This document shows positions 34,901 through 49,421 of a DNA stretch of 64,000 nucleotides, one piece after another. Positions within the stretch are counted from its first letter, which is position 1, and each line of letters begins with the position of its first letter. This stretch comes from Desulfobacterales bacterium (lineage in GTDB: Bacteria > Desulfobacterota > Desulfobacteria > Desulfobacterales > Desulfosalsimonadaceae), in the NCBI GenBank assembly GCA_034520365.1, contig JAXHNP010000007.1, positions 124,001 to 188,000 on the forward strand, read 5' to 3'. Under the pieces are notes generated by a model. It worked only from the letters and a program-made list of their open reading frames with translations, had not been told where the DNA came from and did not search any database. A program made the translations under genes and the position numbers.

Positions 34901-35721
34901 TCGGCGTATGTCACCAAGGATCCATCATAGTGGACCAAAAGATCAATGCCGCCGGTTTGAGAATCATCAATATAATCAACGGTGATATTAAACGTCTCTT
35001 CCACTTTCACCTCGGCGGAATCCGGGGAAAGTTTCACCACCTGCTTTTCCACTTGAGCATCCGTACAGGGATCATAGCCATCATGTGCTGAGTCACCCGG
35101 ATCGCCCGGATCATCCGGATCAGTCCCGTTTCTGCATTCATCAAGATCGCTATAGCCGTCCTGATCGCTGTCTTTTTCGGGGTCACAGAACGTGACTTCA
35201 CCACCAACAACCGCGCCCCCGGCATCATAGTCGGCAGGGGATATCAGCGTCCCGGGCGAGGCTTCGCCGCTTGTTAACAGATCAATGCGCTTGGCTGTAT
35301 CATAGCCGGCACTGGCATTGCTGATTTCCGAGGGCGCAATGGAAATAGGATATGAACCGTCGGCCGCCCCGGAGGCCAAACTCACCCTAAGGGTCATTAT
35401 GGTTTTTGAATCGGCGGCTGACGCGCCATTGGCACTCGCAGCGGCAACCATCAGGCCGGAACTGATTTTATGGGACTGGATAACCTCAAAAAATTGGGTA
35501 TCCACCCGGACATCCAGGTCACTTGGATATTCCAGCGTAAAAGCAGCGCCAGCCAGCGATTCCGGATCATCCACAGTCACAGGAATCGTTAATTCATCAC
35601 TTACCTCCCCGCAGCCGGCACCCACTGTCAACTGCTGGGGGGCAGCCAGCACGGCTGCCGGCACCATCAGCATCAAGCTTAATACCGCATATATTAAAAC
35701 AGTTCGATATTTGGAAAACAT
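31996..35721 (-). CDS. Large secreted Ig-repeat protein with cohesin-like and calcium-binding segments
   Basis: A 1241-residue exported protein. A signal peptide (1-26) is followed by a beta-rich domain of about 130 residues resembling cohesin-type modules (TVGAGCGEVSDELTIPVTVD ... GAAFTLEYP). An Asp-rich thrombospondin-3-like stretch follows (DSDQDGYSDLDEC, about 187-199), then a second cohesin-like part (about 230-310) and seven Ig-like repeats of about 80-90 residues with SWEV ... NRVEIDNGVGEVDP ... TTRYRLTA. Near the end come a fibronectin-like piece and a domain ending GDLIDEPDGRIIDPGG, similar in outline to choice-of-anchor domains. The tail is Gly/Ser-rich and ends GCFIRALLGR. It is probably a surface or matrix adhesin exported by the type II system; the function is not known. 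Confidence 0.75.
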   Translation of the reverse strand: MFSKYRTVLIYAVLSLMLMVPAAVLAAPQQLTVGAGCGEVSDELTIPVTVDDPESLAGAAFTLEYPSDLDVRVDTQFFEVIQSHKISSGLMVAAASANGASAADSKTIMTLRVSLASGAADGSYPISIAPSEISNASAGYDTAKRIDLLTSGEASPGTLISPADYDAGGAVVGGEVTFCDPEKDSDQDGYSDLDECRNGTDPDDPGDPGDSAHDGYDPCTDAQVEKQVVKLSPDSAEVKVEETFNITVDYIDDSQTGGIDLLVHYDGSLVTYADGTENPIRLSFDAANSRELSFAAQQTGSADFEVERAETSATSDIPFCSFDTTVTVRPDCIDLDVEDFSASPNTDIESGEPVTISWDVKNADSVSIREGKMVSTTIVSNGSPKGQTTVYPSQSTYYILEATAVDQCAPAVAEEYVSVTSTCSSPNISFSAEPKSISQGGSATLSWRISNAVSAQIIGLGSVSSSGGSKSVKPTQTTRYTLTAESSCGATSSKAVTVYVSDGTCGTPEISDFSSKQEKPGQVVLSWETTGADSVNIIINRTYKLDAGLPPNGTIKHSITEKTEYQLIAVNSCGNRAEKYIVVEPGAGGSNDNVPGIKEFLANGEKTTNIVYGERVKLSWEVNNANRVEIDNGVGEVDPESGFVWVTPKEETTRYRLTAHNQNGDAVNGVTIHLSYQEVPGIKEFLANGKETIDISYGERVKLSWEVRRATRVEIDNGVGEVDPESGFVWVTPTEETTRYRLTAYNPYDSAVNAVTVRMSYKAVPGIKDFSANKQEIDYGGRVKLSWEVKRATRVEIDNGVGEVDPESGFVWVTPTEETMRYRLTAHNSWGYAVNAVTINAICNPPGITDFSTDSHSIRYGESATLYWEVIGAERVEIDNGVGQVDDPESGSAEVSPEQTTTYLLTATKACGSVAVNAVKVSVTGSKDNLPPEPPALESPGDKELNVPVSPVLETSSFSDEDGDDHVKTRWQIAEGEPIFDDQYMVYDEITHQYLTRIIVPTDMILEPNTAYYWRAMHYDGSLWSPASEVHSFVTTAEGPEYENGIRIENIVKNDRDIPLGVDFVDGSGNPVNEENIKVLKYQAVNEALIGIKAPEGTLVQKCGVVDPAQYASGQASSSMEFLYGLIEFALDLPNRGDEVSIELHFSEPIPENVSWFTFDPNRGEYYDYQQSVEQDVVLFSEDRMSVTLKFKDGGYGDLIDEPDGRIIDPGGLSAAVSNGGDSGSGGGGSSGCFIRALLGR
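33220..33960. repeat. Three nearly identical tandem Ig-domain coding repeats
   Basis: Segments around 33284-33354, 33524-33597 and 33781-33851 are almost identical in DNA, including synonymous positions, at a spacing of about 240 and 257 bp. This indicates recent duplication or ongoing homogenisation of the Ig modules. Confidence 0.7.
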
Positions 35722-35894: not shown

Positions 35895-37721
35895 CTATAT
35901 CATGATTATCTCAAGGTGCTTGACTTCAGGATTGCATCCCAATTCTTCACAAATTTTCAAAATTTCTTTTTTTTGTTCATTTCGGTTTGTCTTAAATGAA
36001 ATAATCACCTCTTGGATGCCCATATGATTGACAAGGTGCTTAAAATGCCGGATATCGCCATATACCGGATAGCCGTATATTTTTTTCCCTTTAAGCTTTG
36101 GATTGTCGTCAATAAACCCCTTAATCGTTAAGCCTAATGCGCTATTGTTTTCGATTTCCCTTACAGCCATCTGACCGCCTATGCCGGCGCCATAAATCAA
36201 GATGGGTTTGCCCTTACCATTGGCTTTGGAAACGCGTTCATCCAATAATTTGAAAAAAAAGCGGGAAAAGGTAAGGAGTATCATCATAATTCCCCAATAA
36301 ATGACAAACACAGCGCGGGAAAAGTACTGAAACCGGTATAGAAACAGCAGCACCAGAATAGCCGCCACAGTGCCCGCCGTAACCCCTTTCAAATATATTA
36401 CCATATCACCAAGGCGGGCGCCTTTCCATATATTCTGATACTGACCAAAAAGATAAAACGCCGAAATCTGGCAGGCGAACATGATCGGCAAGGATTTTAG
36501 AAAAAAATTAAAATCCGGACCGATATCCCCTTCAAACCGCAGCAGATAGGCCGCATAATACGCCATGGTAATCAACAGCAGGTCAAATACGATAACTAAA
36601 AGCGTCTTACCATAATCGCCGACCCCCGGATTGGAAAAGCGTTCAGCTGTCTGTTCAACCTGCCTCTGTTTATAGACATCCACATGGCCCAGATAAACCC
36701 AGAAAAGCAACACCAGCAGCAGATAAAGAGCAATAATAAAAACACTGATAAAAATGTTCAGGGGAATAATAAGAAGGGCGATCACACCCGAGAGAAAGGC
36801 AAAAAGGTATAGCACAAGCACGGCACGGGGCTCGGACAGACCAATGGCAACCATCCTGTGGGAAGAATGATCCGTTCCGCCCTGGAAAATTGAGCGCGCC
36901 TTCAGCTTGCGCATAAAGCTAACAAATCCTGTATCCAGAATAGGCACAAACAAAATAAGCATGGGAATGAAAATAACGGATAATTGATTGAAAATGCTGC
37001 TGTGATAAGCTTCCCCCGGCTGAATGGTAATCATCATGCTGGATAGGATAAACCCGATAAACAGACTCCCCGCATCTCCCATGAAAATAGATGCCGGATG
37101 AAAATTGTAGATTAAAAAACCCGCGATGCCGCCAAGATAAGTTAAAATAAACAATTGCTGTGCCTGCTTATGAGCAACCAAGGATGGCTCAAGAATCAGC
37201 CATAGCAAGAAAAAGCAGCCAGAAATCATGGCGATGCCCGCAGCCAGACCATCCATATTGTCCATTAAATTAAAGGCGTTTGTAACGCCCACAACCCAGA
37301 AAACACTCACCAGCTGATTGGCTGTCATGGATTCAAACCATTGCACCTGGAACCCGAAAAGCACCAATACGGAAGCAATGACCACCTGCCCGATCAGCTT
37401 ATACTGTGGATTAATCTCAAAAATATCATCGAATAGCCCTAATAAAAAAATCCCGCTTCCAGCAAATGCAATCGGGGCTACAGGCTGAACGACAGAATAA
37501 AAATCAAAAAAATAAAAGCTGGAAAAAAGCCAGGCCCCCATCATGCTTACAAAAATAGCAACACCGCCAAAAAGCCCCGTCTTTTTCGTGTGCCACCGAT
37601 CCATCCGGGGACTCGCCACGCAATTCGCTTTCACAGCTAAGCACCTGATAACGGGAGTGAATACAACGGACAGGCCGAAGGAGAGTGCAAAAGCAATGCT
37701 ATGTAACCCAAATAACTGCAT
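35895..37721 (-). CDS. WecA/MraY-type sugar-1-phosphate transferase fused to WbpM-like N-terminal module
   Basis: A 608-residue fusion. The N-terminal half (about 1-330) is a polyprenyl-phosphate HexNAc-1-phosphate transferase. Its landmarks are LFDDIFEINPQYKL, FNLMDNMDGLAAG, FMGDAGSLFIGF and the HSSHRM loop, so it should start glycan synthesis on undecaprenyl phosphate. The C-terminal half has four membrane helices plus a nucleotide-binding GKPILIYGAGIGGQMAVREI domain, as in the front part of WbpM/PglF-type dehydratases, but ends before their catalytic SDR domain. ATG 37721, seven bases after the previous stop, is preferred over the TTG at 37745. Confidence 0.83.
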   Translation of the reverse strand: MQLFGLHSIAFALSFGLSVVFTPVIRCLAVKANCVASPRMDRWHTKKTGLFGGVAIFVSMMGAWLFSSFYFFDFYSVVQPVAPIAFAGSGIFLLGLFDDIFEINPQYKLIGQVVIASVLVLFGFQVQWFESMTANQLVSVFWVVGVTNAFNLMDNMDGLAAGIAMISGCFFLLWLILEPSLVAHKQAQQLFILTYLGGIAGFLIYNFHPASIFMGDAGSLFIGFILSSMMITIQPGEAYHSSIFNQLSVIFIPMLILFVPILDTGFVSFMRKLKARSIFQGGTDHSSHRMVAIGLSEPRAVLVLYLFAFLSGVIALLIIPLNIFISVFIIALYLLLVLLFWVYLGHVDVYKQRQVEQTAERFSNPGVGDYGKTLLVIVFDLLLITMAYYAAYLLRFEGDIGPDFNFFLKSLPIMFACQISAFYLFGQYQNIWKGARLGDMVIYLKGVTAGTVAAILVLLFLYRFQYFSRAVFVIYWGIMMILLTFSRFFFKLLDERVSKANGKGKPILIYGAGIGGQMAVREIENNSALGLTIKGFIDDNPKLKGKKIYGYPVYGDIRHFKHLVNHMGIQEVIISFKTNRNEQKKEILKICEELGCNPEVKHLEIIMI

Positions 37722-37728
37722 AATCCCG

Positions 37729-38697
37729 CTAAATACAATATTCAATCACGCTGTTAATAATGGCACACAGGTCTTTTTCCGGTCTAAATCCCAGCAGCGC
37801 ATGGATTTTAGAGATATCCGGCAGGCGGCGCTGCATGTCTTCAAAGCCTGACCCGTAAGCCCGGTCATAAGATAAATACTCGATGGCGGACGAACTGTTG
37901 GTCAATTCTTTGACTTTGTGGGCAAGCGCCTCTATGGTAATTTCTTTCTGGCTGCCAATATTGTACACATTGCCCAACGCCTTCTTTTCATTCATTAATT
38001 GTATTAACACCTCAGCAACATCAGAAACATGGATAAAGCTTCTTGATTGCTGGCCGTCCCCGTAAATAATAATCGGCTTTCCAATCAGTGCCTTTTGGAC
38101 AAAACTGGGAAGCACCATACCATATTGTCCGCTCTGCCGGGGGCCAACGGTATTAAACAAACGGGCAATCACCACCGGCAATTTTTTCTCTTCATAATAA
38201 GCCAAAGCCAAAAACTCGTCAAAAGCCTTTGAGCAGGCATAAGCCCAGCGTCTTTTGGTGGTTGCGCCCATCAACCGGTCCGCCTCCTCATGAAGCGCAC
38301 ATCCCCCATTATCCTCCATAATTTTGCCATAAACCTCGCTTGTTGAAGCGATCAGGACCGTTTTTTTATATTTATTGGCAATCGAAAGCACCATTTCAGT
38401 TCCCTTGACGTTGGTTTCAAGGGTTTCAACAGGCCGATTCATAATTAACTTGACGCCTACAGCGGCCGCCATATGATATATATGATCGCATTCAGCAATA
38501 AGCTTCTCCATCAGCGATTGATTAAAAATTGTATCCGCGTTGAAATGAAAATTGGGATTGTCCTGGTGATGACGAATATTTTTCATGCTTCCGGAACTTA
38601 AATCATCAACCACATATACTTCGTGGCCCATCTCTATTAGCTTATCTGCCAAATGAGAGCCAATAAACCCTGCACCGCCTGTAATAAGTATTTTCAT
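37729..38697 (-). CDS. NAD-dependent nucleotide-sugar epimerase/dehydratase (extended SDR)
   Basis: A 322-residue extended short-chain dehydrogenase. The NAD-binding motif is ITGGAGFIGSHLADKL at the N-terminus (ATG 38697, MKILITGG; a TTG three codons upstream is ignored). Catalytic Tyr-Lys is in WAYACSKAFDEF (YxxxK). The ARLFNTVGPRQ, YGDGQQSRSFIHVSDVA and NIGSQKEITI stretches are typical of UDP-sugar epimerases and UDP-glucuronate decarboxylases. It should supply a modified sugar nucleotide for the glycan. The exact substrate cannot be read from sequence. AAAGG lies about ten bases before the ATG. Confidence 0.85.
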   Translation of the reverse strand: MKILITGGAGFIGSHLADKLIEMGHEVYVVDDLSSGSMKNIRHHQDNPNFHFNADTIFNQSLMEKLIAECDHIYHMAAAVGVKLIMNRPVETLETNVKGTEMVLSIANKYKKTVLIASTSEVYGKIMEDNGGCALHEEADRLMGATTKRRWAYACSKAFDEFLALAYYEEKKLPVVIARLFNTVGPRQSGQYGMVLPSFVQKALIGKPIIIYGDGQQSRSFIHVSDVAEVLIQLMNEKKALGNVYNIGSQKEITIEALAHKVKELTNSSSAIEYLSYDRAYGSGFEDMQRRLPDISKIHALLGFRPEKDLCAIINSVIEYCI

Positions 38698-38828
38698 ATC
38701 AACCAACCTTTTGATTGCTTTGCCACAAGTTCATTTTTTGATATTGCCCCCCCTACGTTTCATCCAGCAAGATACGATGCAAAAGCTGCAATTCATTACT
38801 TGAAATCTGCAATGCCGACGAAGTGAGA

Positions 38829-40928
38829 TTATAGACTGTCCACTCCACACAATTCATATTCCAGCTCGGAAAAAAAGGATTCTATTTGTTGGCCAAAACT
38901 ATTGGCATTAAAATCATGGCTACGCGTATAAGCTGCAGCAGCCATATTTTCATACTTTTTCCCATCTTTTATAAGTTCTAACGTATACTGTTGTAATTGG
39001 AAAATATTTTGAAATCGAAACCCATTTTGGCCGTGCCTTATAATTTCTTTTTGTCCGCCGCCATCAAACACCACCGGCACGCATTTGTTTTGCATCGCCT
39101 CCACTGTGGTCATTCCAAAATGCTCAATCAAATGCGGGCTGGTCTCATTCAGCCCGCATGCATGCCAAAAGATCGAGGCGCGGGCGTATAAATCCTTCAA
39201 TACCTGATGACTCACATCCGGCATCAATTCAATATCTTTGCACTGGCGGACTTTATTCTTTATCTCTTGATAATATGAATTTTTCGGAAAATTCCCGCCT
39301 GCCAGACAAAGCCGCCAGCCATCCAGCAATTCCGGATTTTTCGCCTTCAAATCGAGGAACGCATTTATCATTTCAATCTGTTTTTTGCTGCCACCCACCT
39401 CAAAACGGGCGACGGATAAAATGATTTTTTCCTTTTCCGTTTCGCAAACATCGCCATTATACATATCAACCGGGGGGTATATGCGGTGCGTGGGCGCCAG
39501 CCCCCATCGCTTTTTTAGCCAAAGCCCCGTGTAATCCCCATTGCTAATTAAAAAATCATATTTATCGACCTGAAAAAAAGCCTCCCTGTCTCGGTCCGGA
39601 AAATGACAAACAAAGACGCTCAACGGGGAGAGCGGCCGCACCTTACCCAGCATATTGGCGTTTATAAATATATCGTAATCGACGCTTTCTTTGCTGATTA
39701 TCTCAAAAGGATTGGTTTCTTCATTGATAACCATGCCTTCATCAATAAAATAACGGCCCCGTGCCTCAAAAAATGGAATTTTCAACACTTTCAGGCGGCA
39801 GCCGGACAAATTAAGACCAAACCATTCCCGGTATTTTTCAAGACTTATATCTTTATTGGCAATATAGGTAATATCAAATGTATCCTGAAGCATTTCAGCC
39901 ATAGTCGCCACATATCTTTGTCCCCCGCCGGCAAAATGAAAAGCATGATCATAGATACCAATACGAATGCTGCGAAATTGAAGCAGCAGTTCCAAGCGGG
40001 AAAAAAAATGATAGGCCTTAAGCGGACCATATACCTCTTGGACAATTTGCTTAAGGCGATCGAGCACCCTGTTAGAAATGGCCGCTTTATTCGAGATAAC
40101 CAGCTTTCTTGCTGCCTGCAGCACTACCCGATAAAGGTTTTTCTTCTCACCCTTTAGAAAGATATGGGATTGGCGTATACCGGCAGGCAATTTTTCCGGG
40201 ATATGCTTGGCCATGCAAAAGAGCCGATTCCTGGAACAAAAATATTCGCAGAGAGCCGAACTGGCAGAGCCCTGGTATTTATGAAGAACTTCGCTTTTGG
40301 GGGCATAAAAAATTTTCCATCCGTTTTGCCGGCATCGAATGCTATAGTCTACATCCTCACAGTACATGATAAAATCTTCATCAAAATCGCCGACATCGGC
40401 TATGCACGCCATCCTGAGAAAGACAGCGCCACCTGAGAAATATTGAAGCTCCCGCACTTGATCGTATTGGCCCGAATCCTTTTCATCAAACCCGATATCC
40501 CGGAAATAGAAATCTTCGACCTCCTCCACCCCCGCACTGTTGATTCGTCCGTTTTCCATAAAACGGATTTTGCTCTGCACGGCGCCGATATGTTCATCCG
40601 GCAGGAACATTTCCATGGCAGATAACAGCCAATTTTTTTCAACCGTCATGTCATTATTAAGCAGGGCCACAAAATCCCCTTCAGCCTTCTGAATCCCTAA
40701 ATTTAAGGCTTTAGCGAAATTATTGCGGTCGTTCTTAATAATTTTGACCTCCGGAAAACGGGATCCGACAAAATCCATTGAATTATCTGTTGAACAGTTA
40801 TCAACCATGATAATGTCCACATTAAATGGCCCCGAATCCATATCCCTTAAAGATTGCAAACATCGTTCCAAGTATTGGAGGCCATTAAAATTGACAATGA
40901 CCACTGAAATTTGTTTCTCCAACCCCAT
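38829..40928 (-). CDS. Bifunctional glycosyltransferase: GT2 fused to GT4
   Basis: A 699-residue protein with two complete transferase modules. The N-terminal GT2 (about 5-240) has VVIVNFNGLQYLERCLQSL, MVDNCSTDNS, ALLNNDMTVEKNW (DxD-type NND) and EDVDYSIRCRQNGW. The C-terminal GT4 (about 330-690) begins IGIYDHAFHFAGGGQRYV with the GGG acceptor loop. It has ILSVARFEVGGSKKQIEMI for the donor half, followed by EHFGMTTVEAMQNKCVPVVF. The gap of 120 bp to the epimerase gene contains nothing obvious. Two linkages of the repeat unit could be made by one polypeptide. Confidence 0.87.
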   Translation of the reverse strand: MGLEKQISVVIVNFNGLQYLERCLQSLRDMDSGPFNVDIIMVDNCSTDNSMDFVGSRFPEVKIIKNDRNNFAKALNLGIQKAEGDFVALLNNDMTVEKNWLLSAMEMFLPDEHIGAVQSKIRFMENGRINSAGVEEVEDFYFRDIGFDEKDSGQYDQVRELQYFSGGAVFLRMACIADVGDFDEDFIMYCEDVDYSIRCRQNGWKIFYAPKSEVLHKYQGSASSALCEYFCSRNRLFCMAKHIPEKLPAGIRQSHIFLKGEKKNLYRVVLQAARKLVISNKAAISNRVLDRLKQIVQEVYGPLKAYHFFSRLELLLQFRSIRIGIYDHAFHFAGGGQRYVATMAEMLQDTFDITYIANKDISLEKYREWFGLNLSGCRLKVLKIPFFEARGRYFIDEGMVINEETNPFEIISKESVDYDIFINANMLGKVRPLSPLSVFVCHFPDRDREAFFQVDKYDFLISNGDYTGLWLKKRWGLAPTHRIYPPVDMYNGDVCETEKEKIILSVARFEVGGSKKQIEMINAFLDLKAKNPELLDGWRLCLAGGNFPKNSYYQEIKNKVRQCKDIELMPDVSHQVLKDLYARASIFWHACGLNETSPHLIEHFGMTTVEAMQNKCVPVVFDGGGQKEIIRHGQNGFRFQNIFQLQQYTLELIKDGKKYENMAAAAYTRSHDFNANSFGQQIESFFSELEYELCGVDSL

Positions 40929-40973: not shown

Positions 40974-43900
40974 TCAGCCATTTTTTAGCACCTCATTTAA
41001 TAACTCCTGCTTAATATTGGCTATCTTCTCTTTCACCATCTGCATATCAGCATCATGGTCCGCCGCCTGATCAGGCAGTCGTTTAGAGGAAACCGGAGAA
41101 ATTTCCTGGTCTGCATTCAAGGACTTTGGGGCCTGGTTTTTCTGGTTATCCGGGGAATTCACGTCTTTTGTGAAAAACGAGTCATGATGGCGCTTGCGCC
41201 CGCCGTATTTTCGCTTGATATGCCGGATTACCCCGAAAACCCCTTTATCCAAATAAATCTTTCCGGCTGAAATAAATTTTAAATAAACTTTTCGACGCCT
41301 CGAAGTATCCGGAAAAATAATATTGGCCCAGCGCCGGAAGCCCTCCACCAGCCGCCAGGCAAATGAGTGTCGAATTATAGCCAATTCAGTCTCTATATCA
41401 CCGAGGATCGCATCCTTCTCAGCCGCCATATCTTCCAGACTAATGATGCGATGCCTCCTGTCCTCTGCAACTGCCGTCAACCGGTCGATTTCATTTTTCT
41501 GATAAGTATCGGTCGCCTTGAATTCATTCAGGCTTTGGTTTAAAATATCAATGGTTTTTTGTTTGGATGCCTGATCCGCAGTCAGTGTCTGAATTTTTTC
41601 ATTTTGAATGTTTTGTTCTTTTTCCAGGCTGGCTGTGCAGGCGCGCCCATCTTCCAATTCCTTTTCCAAATTGTTTGCACGCGCCCGCTGATCTTCCAAT
41701 TCCCTCTCCAAATTGCCGGCGTGCGCACGTTGATCCGTCAGTTCTTTTTCAAGATTGGCCGCATGTTCCTGTTGGTCAGTCGCAAATGCTTCGAGATTTT
41801 TTACATGATTTTTCCGATCCGCCTCCGCGGCCGATAGCTTCTCAATTTCCGACTCTTTTTGGACATTAGCCACCTCAAGTCGATCTATAAAACCTTCCCA
41901 AAATTGAAACAGCGACGCGGATGAATCCACCAAAAAATAGCTGTCGGGTTCTTGGGGAAGCGGTCCATTAGATGCCATAACCAAAAAAAAGCCTGCCTGG
42001 AAAGGGGTGCCCGAAATTTCTGCACTCCGCTTTATATCGGCATTCCAGGTATTCTGCGTTATTTCCGATGCATCTTCAAAAAGCGCAGATAAAACAGATA
42101 CCGGATAAACATTTTCCTCCCAAACGCGCACATTTTTAAAACGCTCTGCCAGCAAAGTCCGCCATCCGTTAAAATCCAACTCCTGGTGGGGGCCGGCCCG
42201 CTGACTGAATGATTGCGGGGGATGAACGGAAAGGATTAAAACACCATTTTTATCAAGCCGGTTTTGGATCTTATCTAATCCCCCCGCACCGCTTTGCTGC
42301 CAAAACTGATTAAAATCAAAACAGGCAATCAGCTGATAAAAGTCCTTTTCTTGGTCATTCGGGGAGTCCAAAAAGGTTGAAACGAATCTTAAATTGTCTT
42401 TTACATACATAGCCCCGGCCCGGCTGACCCAAAGACTATCCAGATCCGTGCCGACAACATAACGCGCTGCCGAAGTCAGTAAGTAACAGCCGCTGCCATC
42501 GCCGCAGGTGACATCCAAAACATTTCCGCCGTCACAAAGAAACCGGGCAAATTGATAAAAATGCTGGCGTTGATAATCCCTGATAATCAGAAATTTCTCA
42601 GCATCCCTGAGTTCCAAATCCAAGTCCTGCTGCGCCTGCTTCTGGGCCTTTGAAACAGACGGGGATTTCACGAGATGCGCATACCGCTTGTGAATCACTT
42701 TGATTGTATCGGAAAACGCGATTTTCTGTTCTGACTTGGATTGCTGGGGCCCTTTTTTTACCCGAAATTCGGCTGTGGTTTTGGCCACATGCTGAAAATC
42801 ATGGTCAAGTGAGGCCCGAATCCACATATCCCAATCTTCATGAACGGCTAAGCGTTCATCAAAATATCCGATTTTATCAAGCAAATCCCGGCGGTGAAGA
42901 ATATTTAGCGTGGGGATATAATTGCTAATCAGCAACTTATCCCGATCAAAATCATAACTGTACCGCACCCGCTTTTCAGTGGGGACATATCGATCTGTAA
43001 TCCAGTTCATCACCACCTGGTTTGCATCTGTATAAGCAAATTGATAGTCGGAATATTGCAGGGCATGGACTAATATTTCCAGATGCTGCGGATAATAAAT
43101 ATCATCATCATCCAGGTATGCGATATAAAGCCCGCGCGACGCCCGTAGGCCCGTATTTCTGGCGGCGGCCACATCTTTTCTTTGCTCATGGGTCAAACAA
43201 CGAATCTTGCCATCCGTATTGAGGGCATCAATGACCGGCGCCACATCCTCGCCGCCATCGTTTACCACTATAATTTCAAAGTCCTGAAAAGTTTGCGCCA
43301 AAACGCTCTCCACGGCATAATACAAGTCATTCGGTCGATTATACGTGGGGATGATGACGCTAACCTGCGGGTTTGTATCCGGCGTATGTTTTTTCTCTAA
43401 GTGAAATTTGTCGTGCTGGTTCTGAAGGTATTCCTGCCATTCAGCGTACAGCCCTTGATTCTCATGTTCATAGACGGAAAAAAGGCCATTTTGATCTATT
43501 TTAGAAGAATTGACCAAATAAAAGGCCTCCGCATAAACGGCAGATTCAGAAAGCGTCATACTCCGGAATCTGTTTAAGCCCTGGGTCAAATCCAAAAAAT
43601 TTTTTTCCCGCAGCTGAGATTCATATACGCCAATCGCTTCGTACTTTGCCTCAGCTACAGCCGTAATATCTACCAGGCAATTGACTTTCAGCGGCTGATT
43701 AACTTCATAAAAAGCTATATCAAAATCAAAGCGGCAGCATAGACTAAGCGCAAACACTAAAAATGCGGCGGCACGATGGTCCGGATGGAACTCAAACGGC
43801 GAGGGGGCATATACCAATTCGGGGCGCCAGGCCGCAAACAGAGAAGAGAGTTTTTCCAATGCCCGGGGCGTCTCTGCCAGCGAGCGGTCCGCAAAAGACC

Positions 43901-44177
43901 AAAATTCACGGTCTCCGATTCCAAGCCGGCTGCATGCAGCTATAGCCTCCTGCCGCCTTACCGCCATATATGCTTCAGGTTCATCTTGCCCGGAAAAATC
44001 ACCCTTTGCCCCATCAGTCAAAAAAACCACTTTCACCGAATCGCCGGCTTTCACATGACGAATCAAGCTTCCGCCACACCCCAGTGTTTCATCATCCGGA
44101 TGCGGGGCCAAAACGAGCACCCGTTTACCGGTCAGATCGGTTTCCTGGTATGGTACCAGCACATCTTCAGATAACAT
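40974..44177 (-). CDS. Four-part glycan enzyme: PIG-L deacetylase, GT2, methyltransferase, coiled coil
   Basis: A 1067-residue protein. Residues 17-225 are a PIG-L/LmbE deacetylase (LAPHPDDETLGCGG with HPDDE at 26-30, and HPDH at 131-134). Residues 271-480 are a GT2 domain (VSVIIPTYNRPNDL, VVNDGG, AYLDDDDIYYP). Residues 530-735 are a SAM methyltransferase (VLDVTCGDGSGCYLL, GTDLD). Residues 757-935 are a long coiled coil with five 14-residue repeats. The tail carries the RHSFAWRLVEGFRRW motif common at the end of glycan transferases. GGAGG lies seven bases before ATG 44177. It sits directly downstream of wzt; a role in modifying and capping the exported chain is plausible. Confidence 0.82.
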   Translation of the reverse strand: MLSEDVLVPYQETDLTGKRVLVLAPHPDDETLGCGGSLIRHVKAGDSVKVVFLTDGAKGDFSGQDEPEAYMAVRRQEAIAACSRLGIGDREFWSFADRSLAETPRALEKLSSLFAAWRPELVYAPSPFEFHPDHRAAAFLVFALSLCCRFDFDIAFYEVNQPLKVNCLVDITAVAEAKYEAIGVYESQLREKNFLDLTQGLNRFRSMTLSESAVYAEAFYLVNSSKIDQNGLFSVYEHENQGLYAEWQEYLQNQHDKFHLEKKHTPDTNPQVSVIIPTYNRPNDLYYAVESVLAQTFQDFEIIVVNDGGEDVAPVIDALNTDGKIRCLTHEQRKDVAAARNTGLRASRGLYIAYLDDDDIYYPQHLEILVHALQYSDYQFAYTDANQVVMNWITDRYVPTEKRVRYSYDFDRDKLLISNYIPTLNILHRRDLLDKIGYFDERLAVHEDWDMWIRASLDHDFQHVAKTTAEFRVKKGPQQSKSEQKIAFSDTIKVIHKRYAHLVKSPSVSKAQKQAQQDLDLELRDAEKFLIIRDYQRQHFYQFARFLCDGGNVLDVTCGDGSGCYLLTSAARYVVGTDLDSLWVSRAGAMYVKDNLRFVSTFLDSPNDQEKDFYQLIACFDFNQFWQQSGAGGLDKIQNRLDKNGVLILSVHPPQSFSQRAGPHQELDFNGWRTLLAERFKNVRVWEENVYPVSVLSALFEDASEITQNTWNADIKRSAEISGTPFQAGFFLVMASNGPLPQEPDSYFLVDSSASLFQFWEGFIDRLEVANVQKESEIEKLSAAEADRKNHVKNLEAFATDQQEHAANLEKELTDQRAHAGNLERELEDQRARANNLEKELEDGRACTASLEKEQNIQNEKIQTLTADQASKQKTIDILNQSLNEFKATDTYQKNEIDRLTAVAEDRRHRIISLEDMAAEKDAILGDIETELAIIRHSFAWRLVEGFRRWANIIFPDTSRRRKVYLKFISAGKIYLDKGVFGVIRHIKRKYGGRKRHHDSFFTKDVNSPDNQKNQAPKSLNADQEISPVSSKRLPDQAADHDADMQMVKEKIANIKQELLNEVLKNG

Positions 44178-44198: not shown

Positions 44199-45365
44199 TT
44201 ATATATTTAAATCCCACTGATGCTCCATGTAAAAGCAACCATATACCTCCGGCCGTTTATAAATTTCAAGCTCGGCCGAAAGCTTGCGGTCGTAAATATG
44301 CATCGCATATTCATCCAGAAGATATACCACCGCCTTATATGTGCCGTTAACTAATTTGATATCCGGAAAAGCCATTTTTACTTGAGTAAAACTGTTGATC
44401 CAAATAGGGGGATAACCGTCCCCTTTCGTGGTAACAACAAAAAGGCCTTCTCCCGAAGGGTTTTCAAATCCAATACCCACATGGCACTGCACTTGCCGTG
44501 AGCTGGAAATGGTCACAGACACGCAAACATCTTTACCGCATGCTGTCTTCTGAACAATCTCCCCATTGTAATTCTGGACTTCAACCCGATCGATCTTTAC
44601 CGGCGCGGTGGCATCATGCTGATGCTCGAGTTTTTGCGCCTCCTGCTGCTGGCACCATTTTTCATAGGCAATCACAACTTGATCGGTGAAGCCCATCCTT
44701 TGAATTTTACCACTATTTAACCACATGGTACGATCACATAATTCAGATACAAAATACATGCTATGGCTGCAAAAAATAATGGTTTTATTTTTCCGCCGAA
44801 AGCTCATTATGCGATCCACACATTTTTTCTGAAAATTCTGGTCGCCGACGCTTAACGCCTCATCAATGATCAAAATATCGGGGTCCACGCTGGTAGCAAT
44901 GGAGAAAGCCAACCGAACATACATCCCGGAAGAATAGGTTTTGACCGGCTGATCGATAAATTCTTCAAGACCGGCGAAGCTGATAATTTCATCCTCAATG
45001 GCTTGGATTTCTTCGTGTTCCAGGCCCAGCAGGGTCGCGTTCAAATAAATATTCTGACGACCCGAAAATTCGGGATGGAACCCCGCCCCCAACTCTAAGA
45101 GGGCGGCTACCCGGCCATTAATGGAAAGGCTGCCCTCCGAGGGCTGCAGGGTTCCGGCCAGAATCTTAAGCAACGTGCTCTTGCCCGCCCCGTTATTTCC
45201 TATTATACCGAAAGCTTCGCCGCGATCTATGCTGAAAGAAATACGATCCAGCGCATGAAAGGCTTTATGAAAAGGACGCCTTAGGATCAATTCTTTTAGG
45301 CGATCCACGGGCTTGGCATAGAGCCGGTATTGTTTTGATATATTCTGTGCGTCTATGTCTAACAT
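44199..45365 (-). CDS. wzt: ABC transporter ATP-binding protein for polysaccharide export (Wzt)
   Basis: A 388-residue ATPase powering export of lipid-linked glycan across the inner membrane with Wzm. Walker A is GNNGAGKST, the Q-loop region ELGAGFHPEFSGRQNIYLN is typical of Wzt/TagH, and the signature is YSSGMYVRLAFS. Walker B is ILIIDEALSVGD and the switch histidine is in CSHS. After about residue 240, a 140-residue beta-rich extension (KIDRVEVQNYNGEIV ... VNGTYKAVVYLLDE) matches the Wzt C-terminal carbohydrate-binding domain, which in other systems reads the chain end. The wzm gene lies two genes upstream in the same operon. Confidence 0.92.
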   Translation of the reverse strand: MLDIDAQNISKQYRLYAKPVDRLKELILRRPFHKAFHALDRISFSIDRGEAFGIIGNNGAGKSTLLKILAGTLQPSEGSLSINGRVAALLELGAGFHPEFSGRQNIYLNATLLGLEHEEIQAIEDEIISFAGLEEFIDQPVKTYSSGMYVRLAFSIATSVDPDILIIDEALSVGDQNFQKKCVDRIMSFRRKNKTIIFCSHSMYFVSELCDRTMWLNSGKIQRMGFTDQVVIAYEKWCQQQEAQKLEHQHDATAPVKIDRVEVQNYNGEIVQKTACGKDVCVSVTISSSRQVQCHVGIGFENPSGEGLFVVTTKGDGYPPIWINSFTQVKMAFPDIKLVNGTYKAVVYLLDEYAMHIYDRKLSAELEIYKRPEVYGCFYMEHQWDLNI

Positions 45366-45400: not shown

Positions 45401-46393
45401 TCAGAAGAGATCGCCATCGGCCATGGTATAATAAAGATTGTTTAATACCCAGTCAGGGGAGATCTCCGGGGCAAAACAGCATGCTGCGGGAATAAATCCA
45501 AACGGTTCTGGTTCATTGGTGAAACCAGCGCCAAGAAATATGTCGGCAAGCGCATGATGGGCCGGCAACCAGGTAACCATATGCTTAACCCCCTTTGTTT
45601 TATATGCCTGCTTGAGGCAGGATAGAAAACTTTTGACAGTCTCAGGCTTCGGCATTGAGAGCCAGTCCACAATAACAGCCCGATCACCCTCGTTACAGAT
45701 CACGGCATAGCCTTCCATAACAGTCTGCGGTGTGTTGTAATACCCCCATATTTCATAGTCCTTCAAGCAATTTTCACAGAAACGCCATTTAACAAACTGC
45801 TGATTCCGCACCACCGCCATTGGATAATAGGGGCGGCATTTTTCCCACAATCTGTCGAATGCCCCATCGATTTGGCTGTACGTCAGGGCTGATGCCTGTT
45901 TGCAGGTTGAGAAAAATTCTGCATCATCCGTGGACGCAGTCACATAGGCCATCCCCTCTGGCAAGCGCCTGTATTGAAGGTATTTTTCCCCGATATCAAA
46001 ATGCTGCTTCCCCGGCAATCCATAACAAAAAGCATATTTCTCAATTCCCATACAATTTTCAGTAAACGCCTGGGCCGTTTGGACAAAAAAACCGCCCCCC
46101 CTGTATTGCGGATGCGACATGATGTCCATTAGTTGAACGATCTCAACCCGCCGGCCATTGCAGTTGGCCGAATAGGGAATCCCGCCGAAATATGCCACAA
46201 TTTCACCGGTATCCTGGACACAGAGCATAATGCGGCGGCCGTATGGATTGGCCGTGTATTTCCAATGCCACAGGGAGGCCGGCATTTCCTGACCAAACAC
46301 TTCGCGCCAGAGAGCCAGCACCCCTGGTTGATCAACCTCCTGATAAGGGCGAATGATAAAGCGGCCGTCCGCTATGCGTTGACTTTTTCCCAT
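45401..46393 (-). CDS. GNAT-family N-acetyltransferase
   Basis: A 330-residue protein. The N-terminal part shows a GNAT fold: RFIIRPYQEVDQPGVLALWR, then GEIVAYFGGIPYSANCNGRR, and VQLMDIMSHPQYRGGGFF, whose RGGGFF region is the acetyl-CoA phosphate loop. A second, divergent half (about 170-330) suggests a double-GNAT layout. It likely acylates an amino sugar of the glycan, given its place between the GT2 and wzt. It overlaps the upstream GT2 by 22 bp. Confidence 0.7.
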   Translation of the reverse strand: MGKSQRIADGRFIIRPYQEVDQPGVLALWREVFGQEMPASLWHWKYTANPYGRRIMLCVQDTGEIVAYFGGIPYSANCNGRRVEIVQLMDIMSHPQYRGGGFFVQTAQAFTENCMGIEKYAFCYGLPGKQHFDIGEKYLQYRRLPEGMAYVTASTDDAEFFSTCKQASALTYSQIDGAFDRLWEKCRPYYPMAVVRNQQFVKWRFCENCLKDYEIWGYYNTPQTVMEGYAVICNEGDRAVIVDWLSMPKPETVKSFLSCLKQAYKTKGVKHMVTWLPAHHALADIFLGAGFTNEPEPFGFIPAACCFAPEISPDWVLNNLYYTMADGDLF

Positions 46394-47442
46394 TTCCAGA
46401 TTCTATTCTGATTTTTTTGGGGGTTTCTAACCCGGCTGTAATAGGTTCCCGGGGCGAGCCGCTGCCATACGGTTTCAGGCAGACAAAAATCGTCTGAAGC
46501 CAAATCACACTGGATAAACGGCACAAACAAGGAATTCAGGGCGATTTCAAAATAGGCATAACCACAGTCGCAATCTTTGCCGAACCCAAACCTCGGCGGG
46601 GTCTTTTGCTTCCCTAAATCTTCAATTTGAAGCGGGCGGGATGGTGGACCATGGATGGTTTGCACACGGTAGTGCGAATAATATTTTTCATAAAATTGTT
46701 CGCCAGATTTATTAATGGCAGCCATCTTGGTCTGCGGTGGTGCGGGCGACTGGTTATAATAATGGATGGCTTTGGCTGCCGGCACGCAGATCGGGGATTC
46801 ATCATTTAAAAGCGCCTGGGCGCAAAGGTCGGTATCTTCATAATATAAAAAAAACCGTTCATCAAAAAGCACGCCGCCCTTGGCCAGAATCCAGGGCATT
46901 TGCACCAGCAGGCAGGCACCGGAAAGAAACGGCTCGAAAAACGGCTCAGTAGCCGCCCAGAACCGCTCATGGCGAATCTGCCAATAAAAATCGGCCAGTT
47001 TGGCATCGATTTCAAAATGGGACGCCGCATTAAGCGCTCCATACATTCCCATAAAATCACCGGTTGAAGGGGGCAGACGAAACAGATAATCGTCATCCCA
47101 GTAAAATCTGGGACCGGTCAAAACTGCATCATATGTATTTGCCGCATCCAGCAAATGGCGCAGGCAGGCATTATCCAAACGAACATCCGGATTAATGACC
47201 AGTACCCAATCCGTTTCTACATGCTTGAGTCCCTGGTTAACGCCTTTGGCAAATCCAAGATTGGCTGAATTGCGGATCAGTTCGATGTTTTTCGGGCCAG
47301 CCCGCTTCTCCGCAAGGTCAATGGCGCCGCTATTATCCACCACAATTATGGACCTGATTTCAGGAAACGCGTAAAGGTGCCGTATTAATTGGCCGACAAG
47401 CCGCTCGGTTTTATAATTGACAACAACAGCCGTAACAGCCAT
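46372..47442 (-). CDS. Glycosyltransferase family 2
   Basis: A 356-residue GT2 enzyme starting at ATG 47442 (MAVTAVVVNYKTERL); the frame opens six codons earlier with TTG. Visible are VVVDNSGAID, RNSANLGFAKGVNQGL, VINPDVRLDN (DxD-type), SGACLLVQMPWILAKGGVLFDERFFLYYEDTDLCAQ with the catalytic EDTD. This fits the rhamnosyl/GlcNAc-type branch. About 90 C-terminal residues have no clear assignment. It lies between wzm and the GNAT gene and overlaps the latter. Confidence 0.85.
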   Translation of the reverse strand: MAVTAVVVNYKTERLVGQLIRHLYAFPEIRSIIVVDNSGAIDLAEKRAGPKNIELIRNSANLGFAKGVNQGLKHVETDWVLVINPDVRLDNACLRHLLDAANTYDAVLTGPRFYWDDDYLFRLPPSTGDFMGMYGALNAASHFEIDAKLADFYWQIRHERFWAATEPFFEPFLSGACLLVQMPWILAKGGVLFDERFFLYYEDTDLCAQALLNDESPICVPAAKAIHYYNQSPAPPQTKMAAINKSGEQFYEKYYSHYRVQTIHGPPSRPLQIEDLGKQKTPPRFGFGKDCDCGYAYFEIALNSLFVPFIQCDLASDDFCLPETVWQRLAPGTYYSRVRNPQKNQNRIWKWEKVNA

Positions 47443-47456
47443 TTCTATATATCCCG

Positions 47457-48269
47457 TCAAAGCACGTCGCCAAAGGCATTTTTGGCCCGCATGAAAAAGG
47501 TTGTGCCAATCGAATAGGCAATCAGGGAAACCGCCGTTACATATACTAACTGCCCCATATCCATCTGGTGCTTTAAAAGCACATCGCGGTACAGGTCAAC
47601 AAAGCCCCACATGGGGTTAAACTGCATGGCGGAGCGAAAGACATCCGGCAGCATGGAGGCCGGATAAACTATCGGGCACGCATAGAACCATACCATCAGC
47701 AGGATGGCCAGAATTTCTTTCATGTCCCGGATAAATACGCACAGCCCGGATAACAGGTTGGCCAGTCCCCATGTAAACAGGGTCTGAAGAAAAAGCAGCA
47801 ACAGCAGATGCAACCAGGTTCCCCCGAGATATCCCAAAAAAGCCAGTACAATCAAAAAACATAGATACCCCACGCCATTTATCAAAAAGGATGAAATCAC
47901 CACCCCCACAGGCAAAAGCTCCACCGGAAAAAAGACCTTGGTGATCAGGTTGGCGTTTTCAAGCAGCACAACGACCGAGCGCGACAGACTTTCGGCAAAC
48001 ATAAACCAGGGAAAAAACCCGCTTAAAAAATAAATCGTAAAATTGCCGGTGCCGGTTTCCCCGGGGCTCACCTGAACTCTTAGCACGATTGAAAAAATAA
48101 ACAGGTAAGTAACAATGGTAGCCAGCGGATTAATCAGCACCCAGAGGTTGCCGGCGTAAGAGCCGACAAACCGCCCCTTAATGTCCCGGACGACAAAAGA
48201 GCTCAGCAGATGCCGATAACTGCCGATGGAAAAAAACGGTATTATTAACAATTTTAAAGCGTTTCGCAT
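47457..48269 (-). CDS. wzm: ABC transporter permease for polysaccharide export (Wzm)
   Basis: A 270-residue ABC-2 type permease forming the membrane channel that Wzt drives. SFVVRDIKGRFVGSYAGNLW is the cytoplasmic gate-helix region of Wzm/TagG, followed by six hydrophobic helices (first about 35-60, last about 240-258). The frame is open back to 48416, but that extension crosses a transcription terminator hairpin and lacks family similarity, so I place the start at ATG 48269 (MRNALKLLIIPF). It is first in the export operon, which runs leftwards to the terminator at 31918. Confidence 0.9.
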   Translation of the reverse strand: MRNALKLLIIPFFSIGSYRHLLSSFVVRDIKGRFVGSYAGNLWVLINPLATIVTYLFIFSIVLRVQVSPGETGTGNFTIYFLSGFFPWFMFAESLSRSVVVLLENANLITKVFFPVELLPVGVVISSFLINGVGYLCFLIVLAFLGYLGGTWLHLLLLLFLQTLFTWGLANLLSGLCVFIRDMKEILAILLMVWFYACPIVYPASMLPDVFRSAMQFNPMWGFVDLYRDVLLKHQMDMGQLVYVTAVSLIAYSIGTTFFMRAKNAFGDVL

Positions 48270-48297
48270 GAATATGATCAATCCGCAGTATAGATAT

Positions 48298-48324
48298 AAA
48301 AAAAAGCGGCTGTGCCGCTTTTTA
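48298..48324 (-). terminator. Rho-independent terminator after the dockerin-like gene
   Basis: AAAAGCGGC-ACA-GCCGC followed by eight T's on the reverse strand. A T-run on both sides makes it potentially bidirectional. It separates the secreted-protein genes from the wzm operon. Confidence 0.75.
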
Positions 48325-48462
48325 TACCGCCCAGGCCAAAACGGCCTTAAGCGGTAAGCATGTGGGGTGTGATTACAGCGTCCAAGTTCCGCCGCCGGTG
48401 AACAAAACGCAATCAAATGTTAATGCAATCCACCAGAGAGCCCAAACACCCCGGCTATCTAT

Positions 48463-49359
48463 CTACTGTCCTGACAGAATATCAAGCATCTGTTTGACAT
48501 CTGGGTTGCTTGCACCGTCACCGTCAAGGTCCTTGAGCTTTAAAACAACATCCGGCATGTCAATCCTGCCGGAATTGTCCAGGTCATTTTCCTCCAGAAA
48601 ATCATCGGTCGGCACATAACCGCCCTCGGGGTTGCCGTTTTCATCAAAATTTGCGTTGTTGAACCAGTCCATATAAGAAGCTGTATTGACATAAAAAGTT
48701 TTATTAAACATCGGAATTGTAGCTGTACCCTCACAATTCAAAATCCGGAAGTATATCCAGCCACCTTCTGAAATCGCAGGGAAAAAACTCCCGCCCATCA
48801 AAAGGGTGTTATCCCCATTTTTCAACAGAACGTCATTTTCTTCAAATCCGGATAGAGACGAGGGCGTACTTTGCCAGTCGTAACTGTCAAATGCCTTGAC
48901 ACTGGAGTAGTCTTCTTTAAGCGGCGACCGGAATCGAATCGCCAGCCCGACCTCCCGGCCCTGTTCGAAATTAGCTATAAATTTGAAATAGTTTGTTCCC
49001 GGCGGCACGTACATTTTAAAATACGCGTGATCCAGGGCCGGATAACCGTATTCCCAGGTGGTCGCCTTTGAAGAGAGACCCCAGTACAGGTCTTCCGATG
49101 TTGGCGGCACAGGGGTTTTGTTTTCATCTCCGTAATAAACGATCGGATCGTATGGATTAAACAAGTCATGAAACCCGTAAAAAATTTTGCTGGTGTTGTC
49201 ACCACCATCATCTTTGTAATTCACGACCCAACCGTCGTTATAAACGGGCACATATGTAGACTCCGGTGCAGCAGCAAAAACGCTTTGGGCGAGTAAGACA
49301 AAAACGATAACTGCTGACAGAAGGTGGATTGGCCATACTGAGTTGATTTTATTTTTCAT
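48463..49359 (-). CDS. Secreted protein with C-terminal dockerin-like EF-hand pair
   Basis: A 298-residue exported protein. Signal peptide about 1-29 (ATG 49359, MKNKINSVWPIHLLSAV; a TTG nine codons upstream is less likely). The middle is beta-rich without recognised family. The last 45 residues show two calcium-loop-like stretches, NDLDNSGRIDMPDVVLKL and LDGDGASNPDVKQMLDIL, as in type I dockerins. Dockerins bind cohesin modules; a cohesin-like domain is present in the protein at 31996. The ribosome-binding site is weak. Confidence 0.65.
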   Translation of the reverse strand: MKNKINSVWPIHLLSAVIVFVLLAQSVFAAAPESTYVPVYNDGWVVNYKDDGGDNTSKIFYGFHDLFNPYDPIVYYGDENKTPVPPTSEDLYWGLSSKATTWEYGYPALDHAYFKMYVPPGTNYFKFIANFEQGREVGLAIRFRSPLKEDYSSVKAFDSYDWQSTPSSLSGFEENDVLLKNGDNTLLMGGSFFPAISEGGWIYFRILNCEGTATIPMFNKTFYVNTASYMDWFNNANFDENGNPEGGYVPTDDFLEENDLDNSGRIDMPDVVLKLKDLDGDGASNPDVKQMLDILSGQ

Positions 49360-49421
49360 CGTTAAAATTAAAAATTCTTTAAACAATAAATCATAGCTAA
49401 TTCCGGCTATGATTCTAATTT

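Follow-up and report, generated by a model that had tools for sequence, protein, structure and literature searches.

Chain-end marks govern glycan length and export, and the window analyzed here, a 64,000-nucleotide stretch of a Desulfobacterales contig, raises the question of whether the protein encoded directly after wzt places such a mark. The initial annotation had recognized PIG-L, GT2, a methyltransferase (MT) fold, and a coiled coil of ∼180 residues in this one protein, all of which was confirmed. We refer to the gene at 40974 to 44177 as the target, to loci of relatives by L numbers, and to genomes by G numbers. Our answer, held with slightly less than even confidence, is that the target protein may be a chain terminator and ruler of the WbdD/WbbB kind for an ABC-exported glycan, in which PIG-L-GT2 has functionally replaced the usual distal MT head.

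Domain order of the target protein and its gene cluster

The target is a real gene, a single open frame with an ATG start on the minus strand; the initial annotation had named no strand. It comprises the following parts:

40974 to 44177, minus strand: target gene (1067 aa), PIG-L, GT2, degenerate MT, coiled coil, and SxxW tail
43494 to 44177, minus strand: PIG-L deacetylase domain, residues 1 to 228 (Pfam and alignment)
42678 to 43391, minus strand: GT2 glycosyltransferase domain, residues 263 to 500 (Pfam and alignment)
41958 to 42575, minus strand: methyltransferase fold, residues 535 to 740 (AlphaFold2, Foldseek, and alignment)
41370 to 41921, minus strand: coiled coil, residues 753 to 936, with 14-residue repeats (model and autocorrelation)
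41649 to 41735, minus strand: tandem repeat of a 42-bp unit (2.1 copies), which corresponds to the 14-residue unit
41202 to 41369, minus strand: SxxW tail, residues 937 to 992, 62.5% identical to L037/L055

Pfam matched PIG-L at residues 21 to 143 (E = 3.9e-30) and GT2 (PF00535) at residues 273 to 431 (E = 5.9e-31). The PHPDDE and HPDH metal-binding motifs of PF02585 are present and invariant across 9 of 9 aligned rows, and the GT2 domain carries the DxD-type motif and the E-D base region, DDDD and HEDWD being invariant in 22 aligned rows. PIG-L and MT are different families. No kinase domain was matched in the target by Pfam at E ≤ 1e-3, and no glycosyltransferase follows its coil, unlike in L038, L172, and L186. 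A full-length single-chain model of modest quality (pLDDT 68, pTM 0.38) placed helices at 753 to 841 and 851 to 936, and autocorrelation of the coil at 14 residues gave z = 11. The coil thus lies between the head and a predicted helical tail (939 to 991), a WbdD-like layout; the SxxW tail is a possible membrane or polymerase docking region.

The wzt gene lies directly upstream of the target across an intergenic gap of 21 bp, within the following cluster:

44199 to 45365, minus strand: wzt, ABC ATPase with a C-terminal domain of the PIG-L-locus class
45401 to 46393, minus strand: GNAT-fold acyltransferase (Acetyltransf_9), which has a homologue in the vicinity of 20 of the 26 close PIG-L genes, the target's counted
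46372 to 47460, minus strand: GT2 glycosyltransferase, which has a homologue in the vicinity of 13 of the 26 close PIG-L genes, the target's counted
47457 to 48416, minus strand: wzm-like ABC permease, the sole match of the wzm-like protein in the genome at E ≤ 0.001
38829 to 40928, minus strand: GT2-GT1 glycosyltransferase (Pfam)
37729 to 38706, minus strand: SDR nucleotide-sugar epimerase/dehydratase-like protein
35895 to 37745, minus strand: WecA-like glycosyl-1-phosphate transferase (Glycos_transf_4) with a C-terminal CoA_binding_3 domain, the probable initiating enzyme

The methyltransferase domain is probably a relic

Pfam Methyltransf_25 matched residues 553 to 645 below the family cut-off (E = 2.1e-4). 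An AlphaFold2 model of residues 519 to 760 (pLDDT 74, pTM 0.79) supports a class I MT fold, and its Foldseek matches were SAM-dependent enzymes of class I, led by 3l8d (E = 4.3e-10). The PDB sequence search with the target MT gave six matches at E ≤ 1, among them 3l8d (E = 2.1e-5). Both the Rossmann fold and the G-x-G-x-G loop of class I enzymes are found in the target.

The initial annotation took this domain to be active, so that it would methylate the cap in addition to the deacetylation and glycosyl transfer. The confidently predicted Rossmann core speaks for activity, as do the glycine-rich SAM loop (D555, G559, G561, and G563), the acidic D578, and the retention of the domain in five GT2-fused proteins, on which our search profile (A7) was built. 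Other stretches argue otherwise: the E-x-x-E-H motif (621 to 625) reads D-F-N-Q-F, nothing corresponds to the histidine of the F-H-x-K-E stretch, and H625 and R540 are absent in all five GT2-fused MTs. Of 30 residues invariant among 12 unfused family members, the target retains 15, L055 13, L058 23, L059 19, and L060 19; the 17 lost by L055 include D578 and G559. The MT tree has a long stem branch (1.65) beneath the target and L055 and unites the five fused domains in one clade in only 12% of bootstraps, and identity between the target and L037 is 67% in GT2 but 38% in MT. The target's Wzt C-terminal domain, moreover, lies outside the MT-locus class described below. We regard an active MT as improbable; because only 15 of the 30 family-invariant residues are kept, the domain is probably a relic. 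Loss of SAM-binding or coiled-coil character among orthologues, which would have counted against the original proposal, is seen in part, the MT having decayed in the target and its four GT2-fused relatives, although the target keeps the glycine-rich loop and D578.

Linkage to the exporter

In 11 of 13 loci read, an unfused member of the MT family follows wzt on the same strand at a distance of at most 0.8 kb, and a coil stands behind the MT domain in 11 of the 13 by our own heuristic, which uses author-set weights checked against shuffled sequences only. In L227, a canonical MT adjoins a 254-aa Wzt lacking a C-terminal domain; with L227 as query, the MT matched WbdD (4azw) only at E = 0.0057. 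Five further loci (L215, L216, L217, L219, and L221) all retain the FETIEH motif and are excluded from every count, their flanks being too short to judge wzt.

The four GT2-fused MT relatives had no Wzm or Wzt match within stretches of 9 to 23 kb, so that frequent occurrence away from wzm/wzt, a second test of the proposal, is likewise partly borne out, but the unfused family stands against it. We rejected the idea that the genes are often away from wzt and hence unrelated to export, given the linkage in 11 of 13 unfused MT loci and in 12 of 26 PIG-L loci. That reading does hold for a GT2-driven sample of 80 loci, GT2-MT-coil relatives included, where Wzm was matched in 0 of 80 and ABC proteins in 2 of 80.

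Among the 26 close PIG-L genes, GNAT is found in the stretch in 20 and Wzt or Wzm in 12; of the 14 stretches with neither Wzt nor Wzm, many are short. The set leaves aside two pieces in G333, one in G305, and one in G075. PIG-L stands alone in 11 of the 26 (one of them, L182, truncated at the end of its contig) and is fused to MT in the target only, among the 26 and among all 40 read. GT2-MT-coil recurs in four relatives. By our heuristic, the C-terminal coil of several PIG-L-GT2 proteins is only short or is missing altogether, as in L040 and L042. Since the coil-less L042 gene belongs to a wzm/wzt cluster much like the target's, clusters of this type can do without a long ruler.

These data bear on an alternative in which the repeat unit or a lipid-linked primer (for example, GlcNAc-PP-undecaprenol made by the WecA-like enzyme encoded in the cluster) is where PIG-L and GT2 work, GNAT re-acylates the amine, and the coil and tail are a tether that measures nothing. 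Short, unfused PIG-L proteins are common, a long coil is frequently missing, the link of PIG-L to GNAT exceeds that to the exporter, and PIG-L enzymes elsewhere have lipid- or inositol-linked GlcNAc as their substrate. Yet PIG-L-GT2 occupies the MT-head position on the same coil-GT2-GT2 chassis, the class of the Wzt C-terminal domain agrees with the class of the head, and five GT2-fused coils keep their heptad phase across a twofold range of length. We consider a repeat-unit or primer role unlikely, though it is the alternative to be taken most seriously.

Heads are exchanged on a shared chassis

Three relatives (L038, L172, and L186) have PIG-L-GT2 followed by a coil and then by two GT2 modules (GT2-GT2). 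The C-terminal GT2-GT2 regions of L038 and L186 are 41 to 44% identical over 526 to 539 aa to those of the MT-coil-GT2-GT2 proteins L224 and L225, 38 to 40% identical to that of L222, and 46 to 48% identical to a separate GT2-GT2 protein adjoining the L229 MT. The pair in L172 is only 24 to 27% identical to those of L222, L224, and L225. By our heuristic, L172 has a short coil of 52 residues and L186 one of 41. In L044, cut at a contig end, both GT2 modules precede the coil. The same chassis therefore carries either head, which suggests that head swapping can exchange the chemical end-mark of exported chains. The proposed role of terminator and ruler fits this swap and the proximity of the MT family to wzt, and the interpretation given in the initial annotation is partly supported.

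The target itself is best read, from its pattern of identity, as a cassette fusion. Its GT2 is 66 to 67% identical to that of L037 and 35 to 41% identical to the PIG-L-protein GT2s of L040 to L043; a 67%-identical C-terminal fragment of GT2-GT1 adjoins the GT2-MT-coil gene of L037 in convergent orientation at the contig end, and an SDR gene directly follows PIG-L-GT2 in L040 and L041. Such a pattern, with MT in 0 of 39 other PIG-L genes read, could also mean a recent, low-function fusion of a GT2-MT-coil gene to PIG-L, in which PIG-L and GT2 matter and the remainder is baggage. This we judge improbable: the frame is open across 3.2 kb, the tail is as similar to that of L037 as noted above, and the difference in coil length from L037 is exactly 28 residues, or two repeat units. 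Tail identity and a whole-repeat difference suggest that coil and tail are maintained.

From the end-of-MT anchor to the tail tryptophan, the five GT2-fused proteins span 190, 162, 148, 92, and 197 residues, all 1 mod 7. Of 8 further MT-coil proteins measured, only 2 have this phase; anchors in L229, L230, L231, L233, and L234 were chosen by eye, and the short L226 was left out, as were L224, L225, L228, and L232, in which no SxxW anchor is clear. We rejected this register lock as proof of selection, because slippage of the 42-bp repeat would give the same phase and the other proteins share it in 2 of 8 cases.

Two classes of Wzt C-terminal domain

A Pfam Wzt_C search across the class matched 154 of 389 genomes and is too broad alone as a test of cap matching; the target Wzt itself fell below the cut-off (E = 2.9e-6). 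We compared the domains directly, leaving out L193 (cut at the stretch end) and the ABC matches in L224, L225, L231, and L233 that do not adjoin MT. The best match of each C-terminal domain was in the same head class (25/25), and the tree needed one change of head class (support 86/74), as low a number being reached in 0 of 500 label shuffles. The target's domain falls in the PIG-L-locus class, on a branch separate from the MT-locus class, and the profiles of the two classes are related (hhalign probability 96). The N-terminal domains likewise separate by class (24/26), so the exporter may merely track cluster ancestry.

A profile of 7 of 10 MT-class domains (A8, omitting L222, L223, and L230) matched the 3-O-methyl-mannose-binding domain of Aquifex aeolicus (6o14) at E = 1.6e-19, and MT-class domains of relatives matched the A. 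aeolicus Wzt domain at E = 1.6e-19 to 3.2e-21. The PIG-L-class profile (A4), built from 9 of 15 domains, matched no PDB chain at E ≤ 1. The lid tryptophan of the methyl pocket occurs in 8 of 10 MT-class rows, in a region where the alignment is unreliable for PIG-L-class rows, and we take no proof from it. Because the target's domain groups with PIG-L loci, recognition of a methyl cap by its Wzt is the less likely version.

A possible amino-sugar cap

If the target is a terminator and ruler with a replaced head, then once the chain is long enough GT2 would add an N-acetylated sugar to its end and PIG-L would strip the acetyl group from that terminal sugar. The GNAT encoded just upstream of wzt may re-acylate the amine with another acyl group. 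Bordetella O-antigen, a precedent for acylated amino-sugar ends, forms no part of this argument. The amino-sugar cap would halt growth and be recognized by the C-terminal domain of the target's Wzt class, and the relic MT may be retained as a structural joint from head to coil. It is possible, and we say so more tentatively than for the terminator role, that PIG-L-GT2 (with GNAT) represents an undescribed terminator class with a deacetylated or re-acylated amino-sugar mark, a dedicated class of Wzt C-terminal domain, heads exchanged between rulers, and, in the target, a dead MT as joint. Searches among open-licence PubMed Central papers listed no title linking PIG-L, LmbE, or deacetylases with O-antigen terminators. 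If true, a PIG-L-GT2 head in the MT-head position would turn the cap into an interchangeable component, and Wzt would be expected to have a second binding specificity. The naturally occurring coils, with 92 to 197 residues from anchor to anchor, offer a test of the ruler idea outside the Enterobacteriaceae.

Comparison with known systems

The target shares the PIG-L fold and metal-binding motifs with MshB and BshB (NCBIfam BshB1, E = 4.7e-24; score 85 bits, below the cut-off of 182.5). Those are enzymes of thiol biosynthesis, not glycan export, and are not known to carry a fused GT2 or coil. A. aeolicus WzmWzt also has a Wzt with a C-terminal carbohydrate-binding domain, which MT-class relatives match but the target's class does not by sequence at E ≤ 1.

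Caps named in excerpts of the literature are methyl, phosphomethyl, and Kdo (PMC11231755 and PMC9445017), and in the known systems covered there the terminator is placed distal to the coil (PMC11231755). As outlined in parts of PMC11231755 and PMC5082667, WbdD of Escherichia coli O9a and Klebsiella pneumoniae O3 has, like the target, an N-terminal catalytic head, a long coil, a C-terminal membrane-proximal region, ABC export, and a Wzt with a C-terminal domain; its head is an active MT with a kinase, whereas the target has a degenerate MT behind PIG-L-GT2. ORF6 of K. pneumoniae O7 (MT-coil-GT2-GT2) resembles L222, L224, and L225 in layout; it has a kinase and a CBM, whereas the target has a PIG-L-GT2 head without the C-terminal GT2 pair. 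WbbB of K. pneumoniae O12 (GT99-coil-GT102-GT103) sets a glycosyltransferase terminator head before the coil, a layout resembling L038, L172, and L186; that head is a GT99 Kdo transferase, whereas the target's is PIG-L with a GT2 by PF00535 match and no polymerase glycosyltransferase after the coil. The initial annotation held that one polypeptide able to deacetylate, extend, methylate, and measure a glycan would be a new architecture, but WbbB and ORF6 already combine extension, capping, and measurement in one polypeptide according to excerpts of PMC11231755, and the target is a variation on them.

Domain content and surroundings of the target gene

The gene reported in the initial annotation was recovered as an open frame:

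40974-44177, minus strand: target, 1067 residues (PIG-L, GT2, degenerate methyltransferase, coiled coil, SxxW tail)

It starts 21 bp downstream of wzt (44199-45365) and is followed after 45 bp by a GT2-GT1 gene. Pfam recognized PIG-L (E 3.9e-30) and GT2 (E 5.9e-31), while the methyltransferase match was weak and under the cut-off (E 2.1e-4). Modeled with AlphaFold2, the methyltransferase part had a class I core (pLDDT 74); by title, the best 50 Foldseek rows were SAM-dependent methyltransferases, uncharacterized relatives, or enzymes that include a domain of this kind (for example, OvoA and CmoB). Long helices at residues 753-841 and 851-936, then 939-954 and 960-991, were predicted in the full-length model (pLDDT 68, pTM 0.38), and the coil repeats every 14 residues (z = 11), matched in the DNA by a 42-bp repeat. 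The target's Wzm and, at E <= 1e-4, Wzt_C each had one match in the genome.

Two minus-strand genes lie either side of the glycan cluster: the product of 31996-35721 has a choice-of-anchor U domain and matches Cohesin (E 3.8e-7), and that of 48463-49386 has a C-terminal stretch that by eye resembles a calcium-binding dockerin; Pfam dockerin had no match there at E <= 1. The 49491-50711 product, a predicted secreted protein lacking a Pfam match, may be a glycan carrier or substrate; in L041 and L042, too, wzm is preceded by a homolog (E about 2e-71).

PIG-L-GT2 proteins and their partners

At E <= 1e-30, a nine-row PIG-L profile matched in 31 of 389 genomes in the class; at E <= 1e-60, it matched in 12 of 395 in the phylum, the samples overlapping. 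We read 40 PIG-L genes in context, 26 of them close (>= 200 bits, the window's own included). Partner counts for the close genes are lower bounds, since many stretches end near the gene: a GNAT acyltransferase gene accompanied 20/26, Wzt or Wzm 12/26, either GNAT or exporter 22/26, and a homolog of the window's GT2 (46372-47460) 13/26. Among the 14 remoter genes, five had an exporter and four a GNAT. PIG-L stood alone in 11 of the 26 close genes (L182, cut by a contig end, included); the other architectures were PIGL-GT2, some with a coil and some lacking one, and the longer PIGL-GT2-coil-GT2-GT2 of L038, L172, and L186. Of all 40, the target alone carries the methyltransferase. PIG-L-GT2 is a system distinct from the methyltransferase family, with its own partners.

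In L043, L046, L175, L182, and L183, the GNAT partner is fused behind a methyltransferase domain. A second PIG-L group (L176-L178, L050, L190, L191) combines a long unassigned middle with a C-terminal pair of GT2 modules; in 3/6, the stretch also includes wzm and wzt.

Exporter class agrees with head class

We compared Wzt from 15 PIG-L and 11 methyltransferase loci. The H-loop reads CSH in 15/15 of the former and V[ST]H in 11/11 of the latter, and the best match fell within the same head class for 24/26 N-terminal and 25/25 C-terminal domains. The C-terminal tree needed one class change (support 86/74; 87% of bootstraps), a value as low as this arising in 0/500 label shuffles; the target's domain falls in the PIG-L class. 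A profile of methyltransferase-class domains (7/10) matched the Aquifex aeolicus 3-O-methyl-mannose-binding domain (E 1.6e-19), in which a closing Trp covers the methyl group (PMC9445017); the PIG-L-class profile (9/15 domains) matched no PDB chain at E <= 1. Wzt class thus agrees with head class, although common descent of entire clusters can account for some of this agreement because the N-terminal domains split too.

At L227:8252-10439, a canonical methyltransferase-coil protein adjoins a 254-residue Wzt without a C-terminal domain, which is at odds with cap recognition by Wzt.

A decayed methyltransferase

A profile built from the five GT2-fused methyltransferase domains (target, L055, L058, L059, L060) matched at E <= 1e-30 in 5/311 genomes of the target's class (its own included) and 14/315 of the phylum that includes G773, a genome titled Nitrospira sp. 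and holding L060 (G773 and L058's genome included). Thirteen unfused members (L222-L234) were read in context: four from the class search, eight from the phylum search, and G774:C596. Eleven lie <=0.8 kb downstream of a same-strand wzt (exceptions L226, L228). By our heuristic, a coil follows the domain in 11/13, several of just 28-40 residues, and none was found in L226 or L230; in L222, L224, and L225, two GT2 modules follow.

Thirty invariant columns were defined on 12 of these 13, the short L226 being omitted. On leave-one-out, each of the 12 kept 30 of 30-34 columns; L226 kept 21/30, the target 15, L055 13, L058 23, and L059 and L060 19 each. H625 and R540 are gone in all five GT2-fused domains, and the FETIEH motif is intact in five more unfused members known with short flanks. 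The target and L055 share one long branch in the methyltransferase tree, where a clade of all five GT2-fused domains appears in 12% of bootstraps. The target's domain, METHYLTRANSFERASE, therefore appears to come from a wzt-adjacent, terminator-like family and to have since decayed. Its Gly-rich loop and Asp578 are intact, so it may still bind SAM.

Origin of the target

The target's PIG-L is 51-54% identical to the nine relatives compared, roughly equidistantly. Its GT2 shares 66-67% identity with that of L037/L055, where GT2-MT-coil stands as a protein of its own, versus 35-41% (L040-L043), 50% (L038), and 44% (L039) for GT2s of PIG-L proteins. Against L037, identity is 67% in GT2, 62.5% in the tail, 42% in the coil, 38% in the methyltransferase, and 36% in the last 75 residues, and coil lengths differ by exactly 28 residues. 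The target's neighbor has a 67%-identical counterpart beside L037's gene, a GT2-GT1 fragment in convergent orientation at a contig end. SDR and WecA-like genes directly follow PIG-L-GT2 in L040 and L041, and L183 has no close GT2-GT1 homolog (GT2 matches at 24-27% or none); the L042, L043, and L181 stretches end too close behind the PIG-L gene for this check. The simplest account is that recombination placed a GT2-MT-coil plus GT2-GT1 cassette behind a PIG-L part.

Exchange of heads before the coil

In their C-terminal GT2-GT2 part, L038 and L186 share 41-44% identity with L224 and L225 across 526-539 residues, and 38-40% with L222. Ahead of the coil, L038 and L186 carry a PIG-L-GT2 head and L222, L224, and L225 a methyltransferase head; a separate GT2-GT2 protein beside the L229 methyltransferase is 46-48% identical to L038 and L186. 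L172 stands apart: the closest identities of its GT pair, 40-41%, are to separate GT2-coil-GT2-GT2 proteins in the PIG-L loci L045 and L185, against only 24-27% to L222, L224, and L225. By our heuristic the coils span 167 (L038), 52 (L172), and 41 (L186) residues, the latter two short. Heads thus appear to have been exchanged on a retained chassis. Because both precede the coil on related GT2-GT2 chassis, PIG-L-GT2 is best read, by position rather than activity, as an alternative terminator head.

Many of the loci L061-L134, mostly titled Nitrospira, contain single frames of 1,000-3,900 residues with several GT2 and, often, methyltransferase modules.

The coil as ruler, and known systems

From methyltransferase end to tail Trp, the five GT2-fused proteins measure 190, 162, 148, 92, and 197 residues, all 1 mod 7, a phase found in just 2/8 other MT-coil proteins. 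An unbroken coil predicts this uniformity; slippage by 42-bp units would yield the same. The proposal of a chain terminator with ruler stands as our best guess, but the methylation assigned to it probably does not occur. The precedent is Escherichia coli O9a WbdD, in which the modal length of the chain is determined by that of the coil (PMC5082667).

One polypeptide performing several steps, initially suggested to be new, is already published: the Klebsiella pneumoniae O7 terminator-polymerase (PMC11231755) has the layout of L222, L224, and L225. Within the literature searched, three features are new: a head made of PIG-L and GT2, a Wzt class that goes with it, and a decayed methyltransferase as joint.
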